The notes below the pieces were generated by a model. The model made no database searches, was not told the DNA's origin, and saw only the letters and a program-made list of their open reading frames with translations. From Maribacter sp. BPC-D8 (GTDB lineage Bacteria > Bacteroidota > Bacteroidia > Flavobacteriales > Flavobacteriaceae), in NCBI RefSeq assembly GCF_035207705.1, contig NZ_CP128187.1, forward strand, positions 3,720,001-3,784,000: 64,000 nt of DNA, read 5' to 3'. The position numbers were made by a program, and so were the translations under genes. Of this stretch, positions 21,603 through 45,156 are shown one piece after another; position 1 is the first letter of the stretch; every line of letters starts with the position of its first letter.

Positions 21603-24600
21603 TTATTTACCTGATTCATTTGGTATTTTTAAAGTAAAAGTTGATCCTTCACCTATTTTCGATTTTACATCTATTGTTCCATTCAATTTAGACAGCACTT
21701 CTTTTACAATAAACAGCCCAATACCAGATCCCATTACTTTAGAAGAGACTCTGTAAAACATTTCAAAAATCTTTTCTAGTTGATCATCTTCCATACCAAC
21801 ACCGTTGTCTTTTATAATTAAAACCGCTTCTTTTTTGTTAGTTTTTACATTGATCCAAATAGCGGCATCATTATTAGAAACATCATGATATTTAATTGCA
21901 TTAGATATAAAATTATTCAATATAATTGAAATTCTTTTACTATCTGATACAAATTTTACATTATCACTAACACTGACTTTTATGTTTATTTTATTGGTGT
22001 TTTCTAAATACCATAAACTTTCAAGGGAATGTTCGATTAAAGTACTAAAATTTATAGAATCTAACTTAAGTGCTAGATGTTTATTTCTAGAGTATTCGAT
22101 AATGTCTTTGATGAAGTCATCTAATCTTTCAATAGATTTTTCCATCATATTTAAATGTTGAAATAACTTTGGGTCAATATCTTCAGTTTGTATAAGTTGA
22201 ATTAACCCTAATACAGAAGATAAAGGAGCTCTTAATTCATGAGAAGCACTGTAAACAAAACTGTCTAATTCAGAATTTGTCTTTTGTAGTTCGTGGAATT
22301 GGGTCTCTAGATTACCTTCGGCCTCTTTTCTTTTTGAGTCATCAAAAATATTGACCAAATAACTATTTTGATCTTTTAAACGTAGCGGGGCAATAGACAT
22401 TATAAGGGTTTTCTTTACTCCGCTTTTAAGTTCAATTTTATATTCTTCGTTAATAATTTCACCTTCATCTAAAAGTTTTTCCCAAAGTCTTTCTCGCTCC
22501 TTTAAATTGGTGGTAACCTCTTTAGATTCTAAAATTGTTTTACCAATTAATCTTTTCTTGGTAGATTCTAGAATGGTATATGCAGTTTCATTAGCATCAA
22601 TTACTTTTCTTTGCTCATCTAATATAAGCATACCCATAAGGTTTGTTTGAAAGGCTTTAGAGAATTTCTCTTGGCTTTCTTTTAAGGCTTCTTCTGCCAA
22701 TACGTTTTTGGTAATATCCATCGAAGTACCGCGATAGATAATAGGTTCGCCCTTATCGTTATATTCTACTTCAGAATAAGCTAAAAAGTATTTAAACGAT
22801 TTGTCTTTTAATTGAATTCTATAGAAATTTGGTTTTGATGTTGAATTGTTCTCAATATTATTATTTGAAAGTTTAGTATCTACAATATTTAAATCTTCAT
22901 GATAAATAATTTCTCTTAATAACGTTGGGGTCATTACAGTGTTTGGGTCAACTTCATGTATGGCATACATTTCTTTTGACCACTCAATAACATCGCCACT
23001 CATGTCCCAATACCAGTAACCAAATTTACCAATACGTATCGCAGAATCCATTTTAGACTGTAGCGAGAGTATTTCGTTATCAGCTTCTTTTTGTTTTGTT
23101 ATATCAATGATAGTGCCCCTAAATTTAATAGGTTCGCCATCGTTGTTACGTTCTGTTTCAATTTCTCCCAGTAAATATTTAGTACTATCATCTTTTAGAA
23201 TTATTCGGTAAGAGAAAGAGTTGTTATCAAATTCTAGTGCTAAATTTTCAAGAAGATTTCTATGGGGCACAATATCATCTGGGTGAATTATTGTTTCAAG
23301 AAAAGCTAAGTTTATTTCAGTTCTTGGTTTAACATCATAAATTTCAAACATTCTAGGTGACCAATTGAGAACTCTTGTATTAAAATCAAAATCCCAATAC
23401 CCAATTTTACCAATTCTCATGGCGGCATCCATTCTGTTCTTTAGTTCTAAAATTTTAGAATCTGCCTTTTTTTGTTCTGTTATATCTATTACGGTACCTC
23501 TAAAATCTACCGCCATATTATTAGAGTCTCGAACCACCTCTACCTCTACCATTAAATATTTAATAGAGGAATCTCTAACAATTATTCGATAAGAAAAAGT
23601 AAGCGATTTTTTATGAAGAATTAGTTCTTTAATATGATTTCTGTGTAATTCAACATCTTCTGGATGAATTATATTTTCAAGAAATGGCAAGGATAGAACC
23701 GAATCTATATCAACATCAAATATGGAATACATTAAAGGGGAACAATTGAAGATTCTTGTTACCGGACTAAAATCCCAATACCCAATTTTACCAATTCGAA
23801 TAGCAGAATCCATCTGGTTTTTAAGGGTCAAAATCTCTTGTTGTGTTTTTTTACTTTCTGTTAAATCGAAACCAATTGAACCTATCGCAATTGGTTGTTT
23901 TGTTGTTTTGTCTTTAATTAAGAACCCCGAAAATTCTAAGGGAATTGATTTTTTGGTTTTAAAGTTCTTAAGCGGAACCTCTCCTGTCCAAACACCTTTT
24001 TTCATTATGGTTGGCAAGTGGGTGTTTTCTATAACGTCTTTATAGTCGTCTTCAAAATAATCAAATATTGTAGTGTTTTTAAAATTGACATTACTTGGTA
24101 AATTAACCATTTTTTTACCTGCATCATTCATAAACAAAGGCTCGCCGGTTAAAGTAGCTAAGCCAATAAAACCGGGACTATTTTCTATTATAGAAACTAA
24201 TTTTTGTTTTTCTTGGTCAGCTTTTTTACTGTTGGTAATGTCTCTAAAGTATATAGAAAGTCCGTTGGGCGAAGGGTAAAGGTGATTTTCAATCCACAGA
24301 TTAGATTTCTCGTGGTATTGTTCAAAATGGGTATAAACTTGCTTAGCCATTACATCTTTAAAAATAGTATGGCCTTCAGAATTTTTAAAATCGGGGAATT
24401 CATCCCATACATTTTTGCCCAGCATTTCTTCAATGTTAATACCGACTATTTCAGCAGCTTTTGCGTTAATATCTATAAAGCGCCATTCACTATCAAAAGC
24501 GACAAAGGCATCTGAAATACGCTCTGTAAATTGTTTATATTTTTTCTCACTTTCAATAATTTCTAGGCTTGCCTTTTTGGCTTGAGTTTGGTCAACATAA

Positions 24601-26174
24601 GTACTTAATGTAAATGTGTTGCTTAAATATTCATAGGGTTCTACAGATGTAATTAAGTGCAGTACCGCTCCATTTTTAGTTATGAATTCAATCTCAATTT
24701 TATCTATTCTCTCAGAACTAGCAAGTACATTTATTGCCGGGTTTGATTTTGAAGCTTCATTTGTATTAATCAATCCTAATTCTGCGATAGTTTTACCTTT
24801 AATTTCCTCGAGGGAGTATCCTATTAAATTTAAAAAATAGGGGTTGGCATCTACAAAGCGGTTCATATGGTCTCTTATAACCATACCTACAAATCTATTG
24901 TTATAGGCTTTTTCGAATCTTACCAAGTTTTCTTCAGCAACTATTTCAAGCTCTTTTCTTTCAGAAACATCTCTTACAATACCTAAAATAGTCTTGTTGT
25001 TAAGCTTTTTGGCACTTACTTCTCCATAAAACAGACTTCCATCTTTTTTAACTAATCTTCTTTCAGACCTTACTGTTTGCCCTTCACGCATTTCTTTATA
25101 ACGCGGAGGTCTTTTTTCAGTATCTTCTTTGATGGTTATATCTAATAAATGCTTCGTTAACAAATCTTCTTTAGTATAACCAAACATCTGCAAACCATAA
25201 GGATTCGCATCTACTATATTTCCGTCAAAATCAACTAAAAATATACCATCTGAAGCCCCTTCAATTAATAATTTGTAGCGTTCTCTGCTATCTTTTAATA
25301 GAGCTGTTTTCTCATCTACCAATGTATTCAACTTTGCAGGTTGTCGCATTAGAAACCACGAAAGTAGGCCACATACTAAAGAAAGAATAATGCCTAAAAT
25401 AGAAAACAATAAGGTAATTGAATAGGCTTCGTAGTTGTTCAAATAAACATATAATTTCCACTCTCCTTGGCTGGTTGTAAGTGGTAAAGTTGTGGCACCT
25501 TCTTTAGGAATATTCTTTGACGAATAGAAAATTTCTTCAGTTTTATCAGAATTGATTTTCACCAATTGATACGAAAATTGTTTGTTATTAATAGCGTCTA
25601 ATTGAACAGCATTAATAACTGTTTTTAAGCGTACTACTGCCGCTACAAAGCCATTAAACTCACCATTTTTATAGAATGGCCTGCGACCAATTATTCCCGA
25701 ACCCCCTTGGTGTAAGTATATAGGGCCGGCGGTGTAGTAATCTTTTTTTTCAATGGTAGTTATAGCACCAAATTTATTGTCAGGATCTTTTAAAATGTTC
25801 AGTCCTAAAACTTCATTTCCCTTTAAGGGGTATACGTGTGTTATTACACCTTCTTTATTTACTAGCTCTAATGCATCAATACTATTGTTACTATTTAATA
25901 ATAGTTGAGCTACACTATCAAAATTATCGGGTATGCCATAGTGTTCAACTATAAAAGTTAAAGTTTGAGTAGCATTATAGCTTTGACCCAATATATTTTG
26001 TAGGTCTATTTTTAATTTAGAAACACGTTGCTCAATTTCTTGTTGTTCTGTTTTTTGATGAAGCTGGTGTTTTTGAAAGGCAACGAATTGAGTTATGATT
26101 AAGACAATTAAAAATGCAAAAAACCCGTAAAATAGCGGGTTTTTAAAGATAGACCGGGTGTTGGTATCAGACAT
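21603..26174 (-). CDS. large multi-PAS sensor histidine kinase
   Basis: A 1523-residue membrane kinase. Segment about 15-33 is a first transmembrane helix, 34-255 a periplasmic CHASE-like sensor, 256-278 a second helix. About eight PAS/PAC units follow (roughly 298-415, 418-540, 545-655, 657-780, 790-905, 905-1025, 1025-1150, 1155-1275). Then a HisKA domain (SASHELRAPLSSVLGLIQ with the phospho-His) and a HATPase_c domain with N box FISNAIKYHD and G boxes DNGVGM and GSGIGLFIVKE. PAS units five to seven share an almost repeated opening (AIRIGKIGYWDF, AMRIGKIGYWDF, AIRIGKFGYWYW), a sign of tandem duplication. The gene carries a terminator-like hairpin within its first 60 bases and is followed by its response regulator. 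Confidence 0.93.
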   Translation of the reverse strand: MSDTNTRSIFKNPLFYGFFAFLIVLIITQFVAFQKHQLHQKTEQQEIEQRVSKLKIDLQNILGQSYNATQTLTFIVEHYGIPDNFDSVAQLLLNSNNSIDALELVNKEGVITHVYPLKGNEVLGLNILKDPDNKFGAITTIEKKDYYTAGPIYLHQGGSGIIGRRPFYKNGEFNGFVAAVVRLKTVINAVQLDAINNKQFSYQLVKINSDKTEEIFYSSKNIPKEGATTLPLTTSQGEWKLYVYLNNYEAYSITLLFSILGIILSLVCGLLSWFLMRQPAKLNTLVDEKTALLKDSRERYKLLIEGASDGIFLVDFDGNIVDANPYGLQMFGYTKEDLLTKHLLDITIKEDTEKRPPRYKEMREGQTVRSERRLVKKDGSLFYGEVSAKKLNNKTILGIVRDVSERKELEIVAEENLVRFEKAYNNRFVGMVIRDHMNRFVDANPYFLNLIGYSLEEIKGKTIAELGLINTNEASKSNPAINVLASSERIDKIEIEFITKNGAVLHLITSVEPYEYLSNTFTLSTYVDQTQAKKASLEIIESEKKYKQFTERISDAFVAFDSEWRFIDINAKAAEIVGINIEEMLGKNVWDEFPDFKNSEGHTIFKDVMAKQVYTHFEQYHEKSNLWIENHLYPSPNGLSIYFRDITNSKKADQEKQKLVSIIENSPGFIGLATLTGEPLFMNDAGKKMVNLPSNVNFKNTTIFDYFEDDYKDVIENTHLPTIMKKGVWTGEVPLKNFKTKKSIPLEFSGFLIKDKTTKQPIAIGSIGFDLTESKKTQQEILTLKNQMDSAIRIGKIGYWDFSPVTRIFNCSPLMYSIFDVDIDSVLSLPFLENIIHPEDVELHRNHIKELILHKKSLTFSYRIIVRDSSIKYLMVEVEVVRDSNNMAVDFRGTVIDITEQKKADSKILELKNRMDAAMRIGKIGYWDFDFNTRVLNWSPRMFEIYDVKPRTEINLAFLETIIHPDDIVPHRNLLENLALEFDNNSFSYRIILKDDSTKYLLGEIETERNNDGEPIKFRGTIIDITKQKEADNEILSLQSKMDSAIRIGKFGYWYWDMSGDVIEWSKEMYAIHEVDPNTVMTPTLLREIIYHEDLNIVDTKLSNNNIENNSTSKPNFYRIQLKDKSFKYFLAYSEVEYNDKGEPIIYRGTSMDITKNVLAEEALKESQEKFSKAFQTNLMGMLILDEQRKVIDANETAYTILESTKKRLIGKTILESKEVTTNLKERERLWEKLLDEGEIINEEYKIELKSGVKKTLIMSIAPLRLKDQNSYLVNIFDDSKRKEAEGNLETQFHELQKTNSELDSFVYSASHELRAPLSSVLGLIQLIQTEDIDPKLFQHLNMMEKSIERLDDFIKDIIEYSRNKHLALKLDSINFSTLIEHSLESLWYLENTNKINIKVSVSDNVKFVSDSKRISIILNNFISNAIKYHDVSNNDAAIWINVKTNKKEAVLIIKDNGVGMEDDQLEKIFEMFYRVSSKVMGSGIGLFIVKEVLSKLNGTIDVKSKIGEGSTFTLKIPNESGK
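26118..26144 (-). terminator. terminator-like hairpin inside the 5' end of the kinase gene
   Basis: On the minus (coding) strand AAAAACCCG, an eight-base loop, CGGGTTTTT then one more T. The stem lies 31-56 bases after the start codon, within the codons of the first transmembrane helix. A nine-bp stem with a T-run is the form of an intrinsic terminator; three of the pairs are G-C plus one C-G, so strength is moderate. Confidence 0.4.
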
Positions 26175-37697: not shown

Positions 37698-37901
37698 AGC
37701 GGTAACAGTAATAATAAAGCCAATTTATACCAGGATTATTGCCCCGGCATTAAAGAGCAATTGCAAATATAATCTAATTTATAGCGCTAAGCTTGAGTGT
37801 AGTTACCTATTTATAGTTGCGTAGATTGATTTGGATTACATATATTGTAAAGGATTACAACGTTTTTTTAACTAGATTTGATTACCAACCCCGAGTCAAC
37901 T

Positions 37902-40304
37902 TTGAAACAACTAACGGCTATTTTATTCTTCTGCATAGGTATGTCCCATTTTGGGTATAGTCAAACCTTTGAATTAAAAGGTGAGGTTAAAGATCAATAC
38001 CAAGAACCCGTTGCATTTGCGTCTGTATTTCTACTGACCGTTACAGATTCTGTATTGGTTAAAGGAAGTTCTGCCGACGAAAATGGAGCGTTTTTATTCT
38101 CTGATATTGCAGAGGGACTCTATTTTTTAAAAGCGTCTTATGTAGGTCAAACATCAGAAAACTTAGCGATAGAGATTTTAAAGGACACCAAAATCGGAGC
38201 AGTAATAATTGAGCAGCAAGCAGAACAACTTAATGAAGTTACGGTTGTAAGCAATAAACCTGTAGTAAAAAGAGAAGTTGATCGCATTGTTTTCAATGTG
38301 GAAAATACTGTCATTTCTCAGAACAGTTCTTGGGATATTCTTCGTCAAACACCAGGAGTCATTATGATGAATGATGAGTTGAAAGTAAGAAATCAAGAAA
38401 CAACGGTTTATATCAATAATCGAAAAGTGCAACTGTCTGCAGAAGAGGTTAGAAGTCTGTTAGAAAACTACCAAGGCGAGAATATAAAATCAGTTGAGGT
38501 TATTCATAATCCGCCAGCAAGTTATGATGCTGAGGGTGGGTCAATTTTAAATATTGTTACCAGTAAAAATGTATCTGTGGGCTATAAAGGCAATGTAAAT
38601 GCTGGGTATACACAAGGAGTTTTTCCGAAGTACAATTTTGGAACATCGCATTTTTATAAAACCAAAAAACTAAATGTAAATGCAAGCTATAATTACACAC
38701 CCAAAAAGGAATTTAAGAATACTTTGAGCAGTACCAATTTTATGGATAATACTGGTATTACTTCTATTTGGGATACAGATTTTGATCAAGTAATACGTAC
38801 TAATACCCATAGCGCAGGGGTATCGGTAGATTATCAATTTAACGAAAAGAACTCCCTAAGCTTAACAAGCAACGCACAATATCAACCAAAAAAGGATGCT
38901 GATTTTTTTCAGGAAACTACCATTAAAAACAGCGCAGGGGTATTAGATTCTATATTCAGAACCAACAGTTTTTTAAGCGAAAAGAAGCATAATGTTTCGG
39001 GCGATCTTACTTTTAAACATCAGTTTAAAGACCAAGGAAATTTAACTGTAAATGCACACTATACAAATTTTGGTTTAGACCGAAATCAAGATGTAAACTC
39101 AGATTATTTTCAGCCTAGTGGCTCATTTCTGCGCGATTTTAATTTCTCGACTATTGCCGATCAACAGATAGAAATAAAGACCGCTCAAATAGATTACACT
39201 GATTATTTTGGCAGTGTATTTTTTGAAACAGGGGCAAAAGGTTCTTTTATTGATTCTGAAAGTAGATTAGATTATTTTTTACAGAATAACGGTACGCAGT
39301 TTATACCTAATTTATCTGATGACTATACCTATGACGAAAGCGTGTATGCGGGTTACTTTAGCCTTTCGAAAGACTGGGATAAATGGAGTATAAAAACTGG
39401 GTTACGTGCAGAACAAACAGAAAGTTCAGGAGTGTCTGTAAATGTATCAAGTATGAATAAGCTTAGTTATTTTGAACTATTCCCATCATTATACATTCTG
39501 CACAATATCAATGACCACCATAGTTTGGCATTTGATTATGCTAGAAAAGTGCAACGCCCTCGTTATGAAGATTTGAATCCGTTTAGAACCTATATTAATG
39601 AACGTACCTTTCAAGAGGGTAACCCTAATTTAACACCTAGTTTTAGCCATAATTTCAACTTGAATTATACCCTTAATCAAGAATTCTTTTTTGACTTCTA
39701 TTACCGTGATAACGGTATGTATATTTCTACACTTACTTTTCAAGATAATGATAATCTCGTTTTAAGAGATGTTACTCAAAACGTATTAGAAAGTACCTCT
39801 TACGGTTTTGATTTTTCATACGGCAAGTCAATCACTAATAATTGGTATTTGTACAGCTATATTTCTCTTTTTCATGAAGAGGAATCTTTTATTGCATTAC
39901 AAAGTGATGAGTATTCTTTTACCAATGATTTTGACGGTGCGTATATAGACCTTACAAATTATATAACGCTGTCTAAAGACGGCAGTTTTAAAGGAGAACT
40001 AGGCTTTACATACTTGTCAGGCTGGTTGCAGGGATCTTATATACAAGAAGAAACTACAAATTTAACCGTAGGTTTAAGAAAATCATTTTTAAATAATAGA
40101 GCTGTACTAAGCGTAGGTGCAAACGACTTATTAGGTAAATATAATGGGTATGTATCTTCTAAATATTTAAACCAAGACAACGGTTATTTAACGGTTCCCG
40201 AAACCCAATTTGTAAAGTTTGGCTTCACGTACAACTTTGGTAATTTCCGCTTAGAAGACAACCAACGTGATATAGATAAAATAGAGCGCGAACGTCTAGA
40301 GTAA
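37902..40304 (+). CDS. outer membrane beta-barrel (TonB-receptor-like) protein, paralog 2
   Basis: About 800 residues with the same architecture as the 31737 gene: Ig-like regulatory domain (ELKGEVKDQYQEPVAFASVFL), plug-like domain (VYINNRKVQLSAEEVRSLLE, NPPASYDAEGGSIL) and OMP_b-brl_3 barrel (RKVQRPRYEDLNPF..., EGNPNLTPS). There is no ATG start; I choose TTG at 37902, which opens a good signal peptide (KQLTAILFFCIGMSHFGYSQ); another TTG at 37878 is possible. The C-terminus is acidic/basic (IDKIERERLE). Function unknown; probably nutrient uptake or sensing at the outer membrane. Confidence 0.88.
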   Translation: MKQLTAILFFCIGMSHFGYSQTFELKGEVKDQYQEPVAFASVFLLTVTDSVLVKGSSADENGAFLFSDIAEGLYFLKASYVGQTSENLAIEILKDTKIGAVIIEQQAEQLNEVTVVSNKPVVKREVDRIVFNVENTVISQNSSWDILRQTPGVIMMNDELKVRNQETTVYINNRKVQLSAEEVRSLLENYQGENIKSVEVIHNPPASYDAEGGSILNIVTSKNVSVGYKGNVNAGYTQGVFPKYNFGTSHFYKTKKLNVNASYNYTPKKEFKNTLSSTNFMDNTGITSIWDTDFDQVIRTNTHSAGVSVDYQFNEKNSLSLTSNAQYQPKKDADFFQETTIKNSAGVLDSIFRTNSFLSEKKHNVSGDLTFKHQFKDQGNLTVNAHYTNFGLDRNQDVNSDYFQPSGSFLRDFNFSTIADQQIEIKTAQIDYTDYFGSVFFETGAKGSFIDSESRLDYFLQNNGTQFIPNLSDDYTYDESVYAGYFSLSKDWDKWSIKTGLRAEQTESSGVSVNVSSMNKLSYFELFPSLYILHNINDHHSLAFDYARKVQRPRYEDLNPFRTYINERTFQEGNPNLTPSFSHNFNLNYTLNQEFFFDFYYRDNGMYISTLTFQDNDNLVLRDVTQNVLESTSYGFDFSYGKSITNNWYLYSYISLFHEEESFIALQSDEYSFTNDFDGAYIDLTNYITLSKDGSFKGELGFTYLSGWLQGSYIQEETTNLTVGLRKSFLNNRAVLSVGANDLLGKYNGYVSSKYLNQDNGYLTVPETQFVKFGFTYNFGNFRLEDNQRDIDKIERERLE

Positions 40305-40389: not shown

Positions 40390-40416
40390 CATTTAGTGTT
40401 ATACGCACACTAAATG
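40390..40416. repeat. 10-bp perfect inverted repeat over the start codon of paralog 3
   Basis: CATTTAGTGT (40390-40399) and ACACTAAATG (40407-40416) separated by seven bases. The right arm contains the ATG at 40414. The left arm overlaps TACATTTA (40388-40395), a seven-of-eight match to the TAnnTTTG -7 box. It could be a repressor operator or, if transcription starts further upstream, an RNA hairpin hiding the start codon. Confidence 0.6.
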
Positions 40417-42813
40417 ACTAAGAATTTCTATATAACACTACTATTTTGTCTTTCGTTTTCTCTAGCGTTTTCTCAAGATTTTATTATTAATGGTGTAGTA
40501 ATAGATGATAATCAAAACCCTGTTGTTTTAGCGAATGTAATTTTGTTAACCAGCGAAGGTGAATTCATTAAAGGCACGGTAACAAATGATCAAGGTTTTT
40601 ACGAGTTTAAAGCCGTTACCTCTGGCACTTATAATATTGTCGCCAGCTACATAGCAAATACTGTGGAGAGCTCTAATATTTCAATTTCAGAAAATATTGA
40701 AATGAAACCCTTAGTTCTTCAAAGCGCTCAAGAGTTAGATGAGGTTGTAGTCACTCAAAAAAAGCCAGTATTAGAACAACTAGCAGATCGCCATATTTTT
40801 AGTATTGAAAACACCGCATTATCTGATGGTGATATTTGGGATGTTTTAAAACGTACCCCTGGTGTTATGGTAATGAATAATCGTTTATACATCAATGGTA
40901 GCCCCAATGTTAATGTGATGATTAATGGTAAACTAGTAAACTTACCAGAAAGCGATATTGTGAACCTTCTTACCGGCAGCTCAGCCAGCAATGTAGAAGC
41001 TATTGAAGTAATTACGAGTCCGCCTGCTAAATACAGTGCAGAAGGCGGATTACTGATTAATATTAAAATGAAGAAAAACTTGGTTGCGGGTTATAATGGT
41101 GCCGTATTCAATAGATATACACAAGGGGTATTACCAAAGCACACACTAGGTACTGACCATTTTTTTAAAGGAAAAAAGATAGATTTCTCTACCAACTATA
41201 GTTTTAGCCACAATAGAAACTTGACGAGATATACCGACATTACTACCTATTTGGAAAACGGACAAGAAAGTGAAGTTTGGACAGCTGAACAAAAAATAAT
41301 AGGCAAGAAGAAAAGTCACAATATCAACCTCTTTTTAGATGTACAATTAAATGAAAAGAATACATTAAGCATAACCTCCACCTCTAATTTATCACCAAAC
41401 GGAAATACAGATTATTTCTCAATTACAGATATTAATACTATCGATGGCGACTTAACTGCTAGGTTAGATGGTTTAAACGTACAAAAAGATGATTCGTACA
41501 ACACATCTAACTATCTAGATTGGGTATATAAATTAAATGATAAAGGAGCAGAACTAACTACTAATGCCCATTTTACTTACTATGATTCTAAACAGAACCA
41601 GGTATTGAACAATAACATAGTACAGGGCTTTACAGAGAATACATCAGAAAACACATTGAATATAGGCTCAGATCAAATAATAAACCTTTTTAGTGCACAA
41701 ACAGACCTTACACTACCGCTAACAGAGCAATCTGTAATGGAAACAGGCTTGAGAGTGGCAACTATCAATTCTGAAGCGAGTATTATGCAATCTGGTTTTG
41801 ATGATTCGGTAAACGGAATAAGCCCTACAGAATCTGGTTTGTTTGATTATGACGAACAAATTTATGCAGGCTATGTCAGCTTAAATAACAATTGGGAAAG
41901 TTGGAAATTAAATGTTGGACTTAGAGCAGAGTATACAGATACCGAAGGTAATTTAGACATGTCGGCTTCTTTAAATACAACTTCTTATTTTAAACTTTTT
42001 CCTAATATGGCGCTTTCATATAAGAAAGAAAAGAATGCCTTTTATTTAAAATATTATAGAAGAATTACTAGACCGAGATATAGTAGCATAAATCCTTTTC
42101 AGTTCTATTTAACGGCAAATTCTCTTTATGAAGGTAACCCTAATTTAAAGCCGGCATATAGTGATTATGTGCAGTTCGATTATGTGTATGACCGCGATTA
42201 TAAAGTGGTATTCTTTGTCAATAGAAAATCCAATGAACAAGCGCAACAAATTATCCAAGACAACGAAACCAATACATTAAGAACTCAATATATAAATTTA
42301 GAACCCAATTATTTTTACGGTATCGATGCAAGTGTGTCGAAAGAGCTTACATCATATTGGTATCTATATGCTCTTGTTAGCCATTATCATGATAAAAAGA
42401 GCTTTACAGACCTAAACACAAATACCATAGTAGAGAATTCTATTTGGACCACCTTTATTCGCGCCAACAATTACTTCACACTTCTTAAAGATGAATCGCT
42501 CTTTGCCGATGTTACCTATACGTATTTTTCACCATACATTAGTGGTAATGCAATCTCGGAGTCATTTAGCAAATTAGGGGTATCGTTTAGAAAAACCTTT
42601 TGGAATAAAGACGCAAGTATTTCTTTGGGTGTTGAAGATATTTTTAATAACGGTAATACACTTTCAACTAGAAATTATCTTGATCAACGAAACACAGTTA
42701 GCGGTAGGGTCGAGAATAGATTATTTGTTTTAGGCTTTAGATATAAATTCGGAAACTCTAAAATACGAGATAACTCGAAAAGAAAGAATACAGAAGAGGG
42801 TAAGCGTTTATAG
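40414..42813 (+). CDS. outer membrane beta-barrel (TonB-receptor-like) protein, paralog 3
   Basis: A 799-residue outer-membrane protein, signal peptide 1-20 (ends LAFSQ), Ig-like regulatory domain (IINGVVIDDNQNPVVLANVIL), plug-like region (VMINGKLVNLPESDIVNLL, SPPAKYSAEGG) and OMP_b-brl_3 barrel (RRITRPRYSSINPFQFYL, YEGNPNLKPAYSD). It is closest in layout to the 37878/37902 gene, which ends 109 bp upstream, suggesting tandem duplication. Its start codon lies inside a perfect inverted repeat. Ends four bases before the convergent small membrane protein gene. Confidence 0.9.
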   Translation: MTKNFYITLLFCLSFSLAFSQDFIINGVVIDDNQNPVVLANVILLTSEGEFIKGTVTNDQGFYEFKAVTSGTYNIVASYIANTVESSNISISENIEMKPLVLQSAQELDEVVVTQKKPVLEQLADRHIFSIENTALSDGDIWDVLKRTPGVMVMNNRLYINGSPNVNVMINGKLVNLPESDIVNLLTGSSASNVEAIEVITSPPAKYSAEGGLLINIKMKKNLVAGYNGAVFNRYTQGVLPKHTLGTDHFFKGKKIDFSTNYSFSHNRNLTRYTDITTYLENGQESEVWTAEQKIIGKKKSHNINLFLDVQLNEKNTLSITSTSNLSPNGNTDYFSITDINTIDGDLTARLDGLNVQKDDSYNTSNYLDWVYKLNDKGAELTTNAHFTYYDSKQNQVLNNNIVQGFTENTSENTLNIGSDQIINLFSAQTDLTLPLTEQSVMETGLRVATINSEASIMQSGFDDSVNGISPTESGLFDYDEQIYAGYVSLNNNWESWKLNVGLRAEYTDTEGNLDMSASLNTTSYFKLFPNMALSYKKEKNAFYLKYYRRITRPRYSSINPFQFYLTANSLYEGNPNLKPAYSDYVQFDYVYDRDYKVVFFVNRKSNEQAQQIIQDNETNTLRTQYINLEPNYFYGIDASVSKELTSYWYLYALVSHYHDKKSFTDLNTNTIVENSIWTTFIRANNYFTLLKDESLFADVTYTYFSPYISGNAISESFSKLGVSFRKTFWNKDASISLGVEDIFNNGNTLSTRNYLDQRNTVSGRVENRLFVLGFRYKFGNSKIRDNSKRKNTEEGKRL

Positions 42814-42816
42814 ATA

Positions 42817-43011
42817 CTATGACAGCATAGCACCGCAGATTCCAAGGCTTATTAAACAATACACTCCAGCTAAAATCATAAATACTTTACCCGCTTTTTT
42901 CTTCTCATAATAAAATAAAACGGCACCTATAAGAATGAACAAAATTGCAGGACCGAACATTATTAGAAATAAGAAGGTCGCTAGACCATCTAAATTGCCT
43001 TCTAAAATCAT
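42817..43011 (-). CDS. small two-helix membrane protein downstream of radical SAM gene
   Basis: A 64-residue protein with two hydrophobic helices (about 10-33 and 42-62) joined by a basic loop YYEKKKAGK, so a helical hairpin in the inner membrane. Its start codon overlaps the stop of the radical SAM gene by four bases (ATGA type), strong evidence of translational coupling. I do not recognise a family. The tight coupling suggests it belongs to the same lipid-related pathway. Confidence 0.7.
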   Translation of the reverse strand: MILEGNLDGLATFLFLIMFGPAILFILIGAVLFYYEKKKAGKVFMILAGVYCLISLGICGAMLS

Positions 43012-44402
43012 ATCATTTCGTTTTGTAGTTCCTTTAGTCGTTCAATCTTATCATCCCTATAAAAGAGGTTCATAGTTTCAAACGGAATAATTTTATAGTC
43101 TTTATTTACGATGTGCACACATGATTTTTTTATAGCACGTACATCAAAGTTATGGGCATCTATAAACTGCATTATAATGATGCGAAACAAGTTATCATAC
43201 CCAAGCTCGGGCGCATCTATTTCTGGTAGGCAGCACATAATGCTCTTCAAGTTTTCCGAAGCTTTCTCTACAGAATTACCTGTGCTAAAAAGCTCAATCA
43301 TTTTACCATGTAGCTGTTCATCTTGCTCGTAAATAATGGTATTTTTTCCTTCGTTTAATAAGTCATCCGGATTTATAAAACGTGTAAGCGGATTCACTTC
43401 ATCGCCTAATTTCAAAGCATAGGCCATTACCAATGCATCAGGATTGCAAGGAACGGGTATTAAATCGTCCGACTCAAAAATTGGGGATTGTTCTAATATC
43501 TTTCTACGTACTTCTGTTAAGGTGATGCGGTTTTCATCCACTTCAAAATTCTCTAAACGACCTGCTATTTGGGTGGGCTGAAAAGTAACTCCGCGAACAC
43601 ATTTTTGCTTCAAGGCAAAATCTATGGTGCTTCCCATTTCGTGGTCGTTCAATCCTTTTTGTAGCACAACTACTAGTGTGGTAGAAAGGTTTAAAGTATT
43701 GAGATGCTCTAAAGCTTTTAAACGAACATCGGCTAAATCTCCACCACGCAAAGTTTGTAGCACTTTATTCTCCAACGAATCGAATTGTAAATACACTTCA
43801 AAATCTGGAGCATAAGTAGCCAATCGTTTAGCAAATTCAAAATCCTTCGCAATTTTAATTCCGTTGGTATTTAACATTAAATGCCGAATAGGTAGGGACT
43901 TGGCGTAATCTAGTATTTCAAAGAAATCGGGGTGAATAGTGGGCTCGCCACCACTAAGCTGCACCACATCTGGTTCGCCCTCGTTTTTTACGATAACGTC
44001 GAGCATTTTCTTTATTTCTTCAAGCGTTCTATGCCTACCATAAGTTGGCGAAGAACCAGCATAACAGGTAGGGCAGGTAAGGTTGCAACGATCGGTCAGT
44101 TCTATAACCGTAAGGCAAGAATGCTGCTCATGGTCAGGGCAAAGTCCGCAATCATAAGGGCAGCCATAATGAGTTTCAGTATTAAATATTTTCGGGTATT
44201 CAGAAGCCTTATTATAATTTCTTATGTTCTTATAATACTCGATGTCATCAGCAATAAGCACCTTAGATCTACCATGCTCTTTACAATTTTTAAGCATGTA
44301 CACCTTTTCGTTTTCAAAAACGATTTTAGCATCTACCCTTCTAAGACATTCTGGGCAAAGACTTAAAGTAAAATCATAATACGTATAGTTTTTTTCGGAC
44401 AT
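43008..44402 (-). CDS. radical SAM protein of the Tes (MJ0619)-like group
   Basis: A 464-residue iron-sulfur enzyme. The radical SAM motif is ELTDRCNLTCPTCYA (Cys106, Cys110, Cys113), followed by LSGGEPTIHPDFFEIL (SAM-binding). Before it are CPEC (16, 19), Cys40 and a second C-x3-C-x2-C set (Cys81, 85, 88, then 96), and the C-terminal end has CVHIVNKDYKIIPFETMNLFYR. This layout (N-terminal cysteine module, auxiliary cluster cysteines, C-terminal IPF...N..YR) is what I recall of the archaeal tetraether lipid synthase family and its bacterial relatives. Radical chemistry on a lipid is therefore a reasonable inference, not shown. It overlaps the Lgt-like gene by 29 bases and the small membrane gene by four. 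Confidence 0.85.
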   Translation of the reverse strand: MSEKNYTYYDFTLSLCPECLRRVDAKIVFENEKVYMLKNCKEHGRSKVLIADDIEYYKNIRNYNKASEYPKIFNTETHYGCPYDCGLCPDHEQHSCLTVIELTDRCNLTCPTCYAGSSPTYGRHRTLEEIKKMLDVIVKNEGEPDVVQLSGGEPTIHPDFFEILDYAKSLPIRHLMLNTNGIKIAKDFEFAKRLATYAPDFEVYLQFDSLENKVLQTLRGGDLADVRLKALEHLNTLNLSTTLVVVLQKGLNDHEMGSTIDFALKQKCVRGVTFQPTQIAGRLENFEVDENRITLTEVRRKILEQSPIFESDDLIPVPCNPDALVMAYALKLGDEVNPLTRFINPDDLLNEGKNTIIYEQDEQLHGKMIELFSTGNSVEKASENLKSIMCCLPEIDAPELGYDNLFRIIIMQFIDAHNFDVRAIKKSCVHIVNKDYKIIPFETMNLFYRDDKIERLKELQNEMI

Positions 44403-45156
44403 ATGTTATTCCCTGTAGGATGAATTTATAGTAGTAAACCAAACAAATTAAACATAATATTTGAATGCTGCTTAGACCTAGGGTATAAAAACTGTTGGGT
44501 TTTAGAAATTCGATACAGAAACGAAGGGAGAAATAACTGACCATAAAGAGCTTAAAAAGAGCTCCGTTCTTAAAAGTAAGATTTGATTTTTGAAGTCTAC
44601 GGATGATAATAAAAAGCACCGTTAAAAACACCACTTCATACAACGCAATAGGATGCCTGTGAATTCCATCACCTAAGTCCATACCTGTAAATAATGTTGT
44701 TTCTTTCCCATAGGTAAACTCTTTAATACCCGCTAAAAAGCAGCCAATTCTGCCAATGATAATCCCTAAGATAATAGGTAATGTAAACAGGTCTCCAGAA
44801 GAATGTTTTTCGCCAATAATCTTCTTGGCAAGCTCTACACCTAAAAGTCCGCCAAACAGTCCGCCCATTATGGTTTTGTTATTCAGATTGTATAGCCAAT
44901 CTTCTTGAATATGTGCCACGGGGTTCTCAAAAAATGCGATTAATCTAGAGAGAAACAAAGCTCCAAAAATGGCACCAATAATTATAGATAATCGGTTGTT
45001 AGATGAAATGACATCAGTACTTCTTTTCCGTAGAAAAACATAATATCTGAATGCGAGAAAGAACGCCAAGTATTCAAGAATAAGATGCATGTTTAATTTT
45101 ACACCAAATACAACAGGCTCATAAGGTATTGAGAAAATAAGGAGCGAATTAATCAT
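44374..45156 (-). CDS. divergent Lgt (prolipoprotein diacylglyceryl transferase) paralog
   Basis: A 260-residue inner-membrane protein with about seven transmembrane helices. The signature region reads GRIGCFLAGIKEFTYGKE...GDGIHRHPIALYEV. In housekeeping Lgt this region is GRxGNFxNxE; the Asn is Cys here, the next Asn is Ala and the Glu is Ile, so residues needed for diacylglyceryl transfer in E. coli Lgt (Asn146, Glu151 numbering) are replaced. It keeps the Arg of the signature, the HP and LYE elements. It is thus a paralog with another acyl or glycerolipid role, and the true lgt should be elsewhere. First of the three-gene overlapping cluster. Confidence 0.8.
   Translation of the reverse strand: MINSLLIFSIPYEPVVFGVKLNMHLILEYLAFFLAFRYYVFLRKRSTDVISSNNRLSIIIGAIFGALFLSRLIAFFENPVAHIQEDWLYNLNNKTIMGGLFGGLLGVELAKKIIGEKHSSGDLFTLPIILGIIIGRIGCFLAGIKEFTYGKETTLFTGMDLGDGIHRHPIALYEVVFLTVLFIIIRRLQKSNLTFKNGALFKLFMVSYFSLRFCIEFLKPNSFYTLGLSSIQILCLICLVYYYKFILQGITYVRKKLYVL

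Follow-up and report, generated by a model that had tools for sequence, protein, structure and literature searches.

A three-gene module of Maribacter sp. BPC-D8 encoding an Lgt paralog, a Tes/TrsS-type radical SAM enzyme and a small membrane protein with a conserved C-terminal cysteine

What do an Lgt paralog, a radical SAM enzyme (rSAM) and a small membrane protein make together, when their genes overlap in a single cassette? Such a cassette is found in Maribacter sp. BPC-D8, in a stretch of 64,000 nt (contig NZ_CP128187.1, positions 3,720,001–3,784,000) that is called the window. An earlier note on this DNA had proposed an envelope-lipid pathway, with the small protein as an accessory; that interpretation was partly supported. 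Our best explanation, which we hold at roughly even probability, is that the module makes a modified membrane peptide, with the Lgt paralog lipidating a cysteine and the rSAM acting on the resulting anchor or on the peptide. Support for it comes from gene overlap, co-inheritance, fold relationships, residue conservation and a near-universal C-terminal cysteine. The features of the locus are as follows.

44374..45156, minus strand: open reading frame (ORF) of the Lgt paralog, 260 aa, with GR-GC and HP..LYE motifs
43008..44402, minus strand: ORF of the Tes/TrsS-type rSAM, 464 aa
44064..44087, minus strand: codons of the rSAM CxxxCxxC motif (C106, C110, C113), which is present in 25/25 aligned proteins
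42817..43011, minus strand: ORF of the two-helix small membrane protein, the proposed substrate, 64 aa
42835..42906, minus strand: small-protein residues 36–59 (lysine-rich loop, last helix, G57-I58-C59), in an arrangement resembling a lipoprotein signal peptide

The ORF coordinates confirmed the overlaps given in the earlier note, with 29 nt shared by the Lgt paralog and rSAM genes (44374–44402) and 4 nt by the rSAM and small-protein genes (43008–43011).

The small ORF matched no family above cut-off in a family scan of the window proteins. A hidden Markov model (HMM) grown from it gave 159 ORF matches, with some genes present in more than one locus, and 152 of these had GxC within the last 16 residues. 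The remaining seven were ORFs with two transmembrane (TM) helices upstream of the rSAM gene (L079, L087), or had the cysteine further back (L085), no cysteine (L099, L111, L126) or SxC (L128); each of these loci had another, GxC-bearing copy. Conservation was calculated for 139 distinct sequences, taken from the 151 matches above 50 bits. The C-terminal cysteine (138/139) was the column with the highest information, and other conserved columns were the glycine two positions before it (137/139), the glycine after it (131), an isoleucine (136) and a tyrosine (134). The shared architecture consisted of a lysine-rich loop, a TM helix, GxCG and a short tail, with the cysteine 17 columns after a lysine present in 130 of the 139 homologs. 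Lysine and arginine together averaged 4.89 in the loop before the last helix, 0.25 in the part before the first helix and 0.12 in the tail, and the loop exceeded both ends combined in 138/139 homologs. By the positive-inside rule, a protein of this kind in the inner membrane would have its lysine-rich loop inside and both ends, with the cysteine, outside. No N-terminal signal peptide with a lipobox, as in lipoproteins and DAG-RiPPs (diacylglyceryl-modified, ribosomally synthesized and post-translationally modified peptides, RiPPs), was found, the conserved cysteine being C-terminal. The last helix and GxC instead look like a lipoprotein signal peptide moved to the C-terminus. Such mimicry would place the cysteine at the periplasmic end of the helix, on the side towards which the active site of Lgt opens.

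The cysteine was also followed locus by locus. A total of 137 loci were surveyed, including related and repeated species and leaving out L001–L005 and 21 short loci superseded by longer ones. An rSAM was present in 130 of them, and 125 of these 130 also had an Lgt paralog on the same strand (all except L019, where the locus ends, L132, L138, L142 and L144). A small TM protein with a cysteine in its last 16 residues was found in 124 of the 125 loci holding both enzymes, the exception being L147, which is interrupted by a contig end. One copy was present in 74 loci, two in 45, three in 4 and four in 1, giving two to four tandem copies in 50/125 loci; tandem copies are usual for substrates. All 80 named loci, the best 80 of 170 found in the relatives search, had a Cys-ended small protein. 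Since the locus survey had used the cysteine as a selection criterion where no homolog was recognised, an independent listing was made of every ORF of 45–190 aa that had at least two TM helices and lay no further than 100 nt from one of the enzyme genes, whatever its C-terminal end. For the 19 loci without a recognised homolog this gave 18 ORFs, of which 17 had a cysteine in the last 16 residues, compared to 7/59 ORFs elsewhere in long loci (p = 1e-10; [GSA]xC in 1/59). The listing was empty at L147 (contig end), L140 and L143, and the Cys-ended ORFs of the latter two had been missed by the filter. The terminal box varied, with GxC in the window family and S-x-C or GYxC in others. When the Maribacter genome itself was searched for further copies, nothing convincing was found, the match next to the small protein in score having an E-value of 0.0035 and two stops. 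The near-invariant C-terminal cysteine makes the small protein the likely substrate rather than the accessory it had been taken for, and hence lipidation of a membrane peptide is a better explanation than a free envelope lipid.

The two enzymes were likewise linked by gene order. With rSAM starts chosen by script, the stop of the Lgt paralog overlapped the rSAM start in 93 of the 125 loci, by 29 nt in 50 and by 11 nt in 36. A gap of 0–400 nt was present in 25 loci and one of >400 nt in 4, and the Lgt paralog was downstream in 3. Within the named loci, the Lgt paralog and rSAM were ≤400 nt from each other in 76/80. Because of these recurring spacings, the layout is not due to chance. In a draw of 149 genomes from the family, an rSAM was matched at E ≤ 1e-40 in 20; the distribution is therefore patchy. 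A draw of 395 genomes from the phylum gave rSAM matches at E ≤ 1e-30 in 34 and matches to the Lgt-paralog profile at E ≤ 1e-35 in 37. All 31 genomes with an rSAM at E ≤ 1e-100 also carried an Lgt paralog at E ≤ 1e-80 (Fisher p = 5e-44 for the two strong classes, shared ancestry being ignored). Both genes were present with weaker scores in one genome of this draw (G242), two had an rSAM match without any Lgt-paralog match (G212, G444), and four had weaker Lgt paralogs (103–110 bits) without an rSAM. The two genes were on separate contigs in G180 and G414, and in G414 the rSAM was still followed by a Cys-ended small protein. The earlier prediction that the genes are arranged to be made together, and kept together, was thus borne out by the 31/31 co-occurrence, the 125 loci and the spacing in the named loci, and nowhere in these surveys were the genes usually apart. 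We regard it as nearly certain that the three genes form a module with a conserved terminal cysteine.

The Lgt paralog scored 78.5–78.8 bits with PF01790 (LGT), above the gathering cut-off, and had the Lgt fold (5azb). Its score with TIGR00544 was 40.7 bits, below the cut-off of 118.9. A separate, canonical Lgt (PF01790, 182.6 bits) is encoded elsewhere in the same genome, and 14 of 19 genomes of the genus, this one included, had a second, weaker LGT-family match (75–81 bits). Relative to E. coli Lgt, R136 corresponds to R143, C139 to N146, Y208 to Y235 and R212 to R239, and M97 occupies the H103 position. The equivalents of R143, Y235 and R239 were kept in 128/128 rSAM-linked paralogs. The same set had Y26H in 125/128, mostly methionine at the H103 position and N146C in 128/128. 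E. coli Lgt and the window paralog therefore have the family, fold and these three core residues in common, in agreement with the Lgt relationship given in the earlier note, and differ in TIGR00544 score, Y26H, N146C and the lack of H103. The MSMEG_5408-type second Lgt of Mycobacterium smegmatis, compared by description only, shares Y26H and N146C with the window paralog, and the available text of that description mentions no link to an rSAM or a small protein (PMC13251419). N146C-type paralogs were additionally found in five genomes without an rSAM match (L186, L187, L188, L189 and L185, in G471, G189, G311, G491 and G165, respectively), with no Cys-ended small TM ORF nearby.

The rSAM contained PF04055 (Radical_SAM, 97.1 bits) and PF23545 (HMPTM zinc ribbon, 71.4 bits), and its nearest named relatives were Maribacter contigs with 97–98% identity. 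It had the fold of GDGT-MAS, with the ligands of the rubredoxin site, the N-terminal cluster and the radical SAM cluster (C16-C19-C40-H43; C81-C85-C88-H91; C106-C110-C113). A solved relative with this type of fold holds lipid chains in a hydrophobic pocket, according to the part of the study available (PMC9433317). The C-terminal cluster of GDGT-MAS was not matched, with Ser-Cys in place of Cys-Cys and PxPC in place of HPxC, equivalences that were judged from the alignment. The score with the Tes model NF045702 was 293 bits (cut-off 450); that with the TrsS model NF045646 was 330.5 bits, below its cut-off of 490, yet this was the best-scoring NCBIfam model. In the tree, a branch with support 97/95 separated 28 rows from 12 archaeal Tes rows and the outgroup. 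The placement in the Tes group made in the earlier note thus held at the level of structure and failed at the level of subfamily: the rSAM shares the fold of GDGT-MAS/Tes (MJ0619) and is a structural relative of the archaeal tetraether synthase, but it differs in C-terminal cluster, and both score and tree place it outside Tes. Met439 and Tyr459 of GDGT-MAS were tried as markers and dropped, as active mutants of both are reported in the literature available and a Tes-scoring protein (L142) lacks the methionine at the aligned place. This protein (L142:8864–10321, genome G212) scored 493.8 bits, above the Tes cut-off, in a genome of the phylum draw without an Lgt paralog, and may be a bacterial tetraether candidate; L144 (G444) scored 441.9 bits, just under the cut-off. 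Bacterial Tes homologs have been catalogued and a link to branched tetraethers hypothesised, as given in the available parts of two reports (PMC8941075, PMC11868695).

Outside the close relatives, plasmid records were searched by tblastn and ten contained an rSAM match. A Persicobacter record (Bacteroidota) had a complete cassette with a C-terminal GxC protein. A Mycobacterium branderi plasmid (Actinomycetota) encoded an LGT-family gene, two small proteins ending in ILSGGLCTGLNPADYAG and IITVGVCTGLNPAMYTGA, and an rSAM consecutively, and in Nonomuraea (Actinomycetota) an Lgt–rSAM pair was preceded by a proline-rich protein ending in ILSAGICTGINPSLYG. As in Persicobacter, the small proteins of these two are of the C-terminal GxC kind. 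The module also occurs in Actinomycetota and is thus not confined to Bacteroidota, the phylum named in the earlier note. In four records from haloarchaea and Mycolicibacterium vanbaalenii, no Lgt paralog was found in the stretch (by HMM on three, by annotation on four) and a methyltransferase adjoined the rSAM relative. These methyltransferase-linked relatives, which bear on the comparison with TrsS, are unlike the window module in this respect. DsrE, thioredoxin, CcdA or DUF3179 genes were nearby in L200, L201, L202 and L205 (haloarchaea, Mycolicibacterium). In L139, L140 and L141 the rSAM was 39% identical and the Lgt paralog was downstream. The two of these cassettes that were scanned had ICMT-family and DUF4395 genes between rSAM and Lgt paralog (L139:9883–10951 and L141:4784–5858), with ICMT-family scores of 59.2 and 49.9 bits (cut-off 24) and DUF4395 scores of 43.5 and 32.3 bits (cut-off 24.5), respectively. 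The name-giving ICMT members methylate lipidated C-terminal cysteines, and we count these genes in favour of cysteine lipidation.

In the simplest account, the modification would be received by the small protein, at its terminal cysteine. The Lgt paralog would move a diacylglyceryl or similar lipid group onto this cysteine, and the Tes/TrsS-type rSAM would then carry out C–H chemistry on an acyl chain of the anchor or on the peptide. Going by sequence and genome comparison, we see the chances for and against lipidation of the cysteine by the Lgt paralog as about balanced; that the rSAM has the lipidated product, and not a free lipid, as its substrate is nearly, though not quite, an even proposition. 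Several points weigh against this account. Three residues that E. coli Lgt requires (Y26, H103 and N146) differ in the paralogs, and the M. smegmatis homolog with Y26H and N146C is called presumed low activity in the text available (PMC13251419). The residue before the cysteine in the 139 homologs is usually bulky (Ile, Val), so that the box is not a normal lipobox; release of a lipopeptide at GxC by signal peptidase II was considered and is disfavoured by this same residue. An rSAM should be cytoplasmic, whereas the cysteine is predicted to lie outside. The L143 rSAM was without the N-terminal cluster cysteines, G165 had a strong Lgt paralog without an rSAM, and G180 had both enzymes with no small Cys protein found beside either gene. 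Finally, the co-occurrence counts take no account of common descent.

The absence of a small Cys protein beside the enzymes of G180 would suit a free-lipid pathway of the kind proposed in the earlier note. Here the Lgt paralog would shift diacylglyceryl from one small molecule to another and the rSAM would couple acyl chains or alter them, with the small protein serving as a scaffold and its cysteine having a structural or metal-binding role. Both enzyme folds have lipid-acting relatives, which also favours this pathway. Such a pathway leaves unexplained why the cysteine is the most conserved residue of the family and why it is common to otherwise unlike small proteins (17/18). A tetraether pathway of this type was moved from lead to second place, because the rSAM is below the Tes cut-off and apart from archaeal Tes, and because the genomes with Tes-like proteins, G212 and G444, lack the Lgt paralog; we consider a free-lipid pathway unlikely. 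RiPP-like maturation appears less probable again; the rSAM would then form a bond to or near the cysteine (e.g. a thioether) prior to insertion into the membrane, with the Lgt paralog as an export or recognition partner and no lipid transferase. The lowest probability falls to a redox or stress function, with the cysteine in membrane thiol exchange or disulfide chemistry and the enzymes maturing a redox partner. It would agree with the DUF4395 genes of L139 and L141 and with the thioredoxin, DsrE, CcdA or disulfide oxidoreductase genes near methyltransferase-linked rSAM relatives of haloarchaea and Mycolicibacterium, but those redox-linked loci are without Lgt paralog and small protein, and the window small-protein family has one near-invariant cysteine only.

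In the named loci, genes for dus, an FtsX-like permease and an outer-membrane barrel repeatedly flanked the cassette, together with a further gene that we take to be lepA. The dus, barrel and permease genes of the window gave no tblastn match in the short distant loci L034–L051 (1.5-kb flanks), and for this reason the recurring neighbours are read as ancestral and were set aside as functional partners. An exact TTTG/TAnnTTTG promoter match was not found before the Lgt paralog in a motif search of the window; the three matches in the whole window are within chance expectation. Two tandem outer-membrane barrel genes (OMP_b-brl_3 with a carboxypeptidase-regulatory domain; 37878–40304 and 40414–42813, plus strand) point towards the cassette. 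Further away, the window encodes a histidine kinase of 1523 aa with several PAS domains (21603–26174, minus strand).

The nearest described concepts to a lipidated membrane peptide are lipoproteins, DAG-RiPPs and archaeosortase anchoring. As described in the available text (PMC12636315), DAG-RiPPs are likewise small ribosomal peptides with a diacylglyceryl cysteine, which is only proposed here, and a second enzymatic change; they use an N-terminal lipobox signal peptide, the general Lgt and an MNIO enzyme, whereas the window module combines an rSAM with a dedicated Lgt paralog and a helix at the C-terminus. Archaeosortase anchoring, in the part of the account available (PMC12186497), likewise gives prokaryotic proteins a C-terminal lipid anchor, here again only proposed, and uses in Haloferax PssA and PssD, enzymes unrelated to the window module. 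The combination of a dedicated Lgt paralog, a Tes-type rSAM and membrane peptides with a C-terminal cysteine was not found described in the portion of the open-licence PMC literature available, which is a weak negative.

If the preferred explanation is true, the module would be a second, cassette-encoded route of bacterial protein lipidation. It would act where a membrane helix ends C-terminally, rather than after an N-terminal signal peptide, and would be combined with radical chemistry like that of tetraether synthase. At least some N146C/Y26H-type Lgt paralogs would thereby gain a function. An improbable further step would be for the rSAM to join the acyl tail of the periplasmic cysteine anchor to a tail of an inner-leaflet lipid or of a second peptide encoded in tandem. 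Mesophilic bacteria would then have a proteolipid that spans the membrane covalently, and its anchor would be of a categorically new kind. Lipidation of the small protein by such modules would also mean that some bacterial rSAM genes resembling Tes need not make tetraethers, which would matter for gene-based surveys of membrane-spanning lipids.
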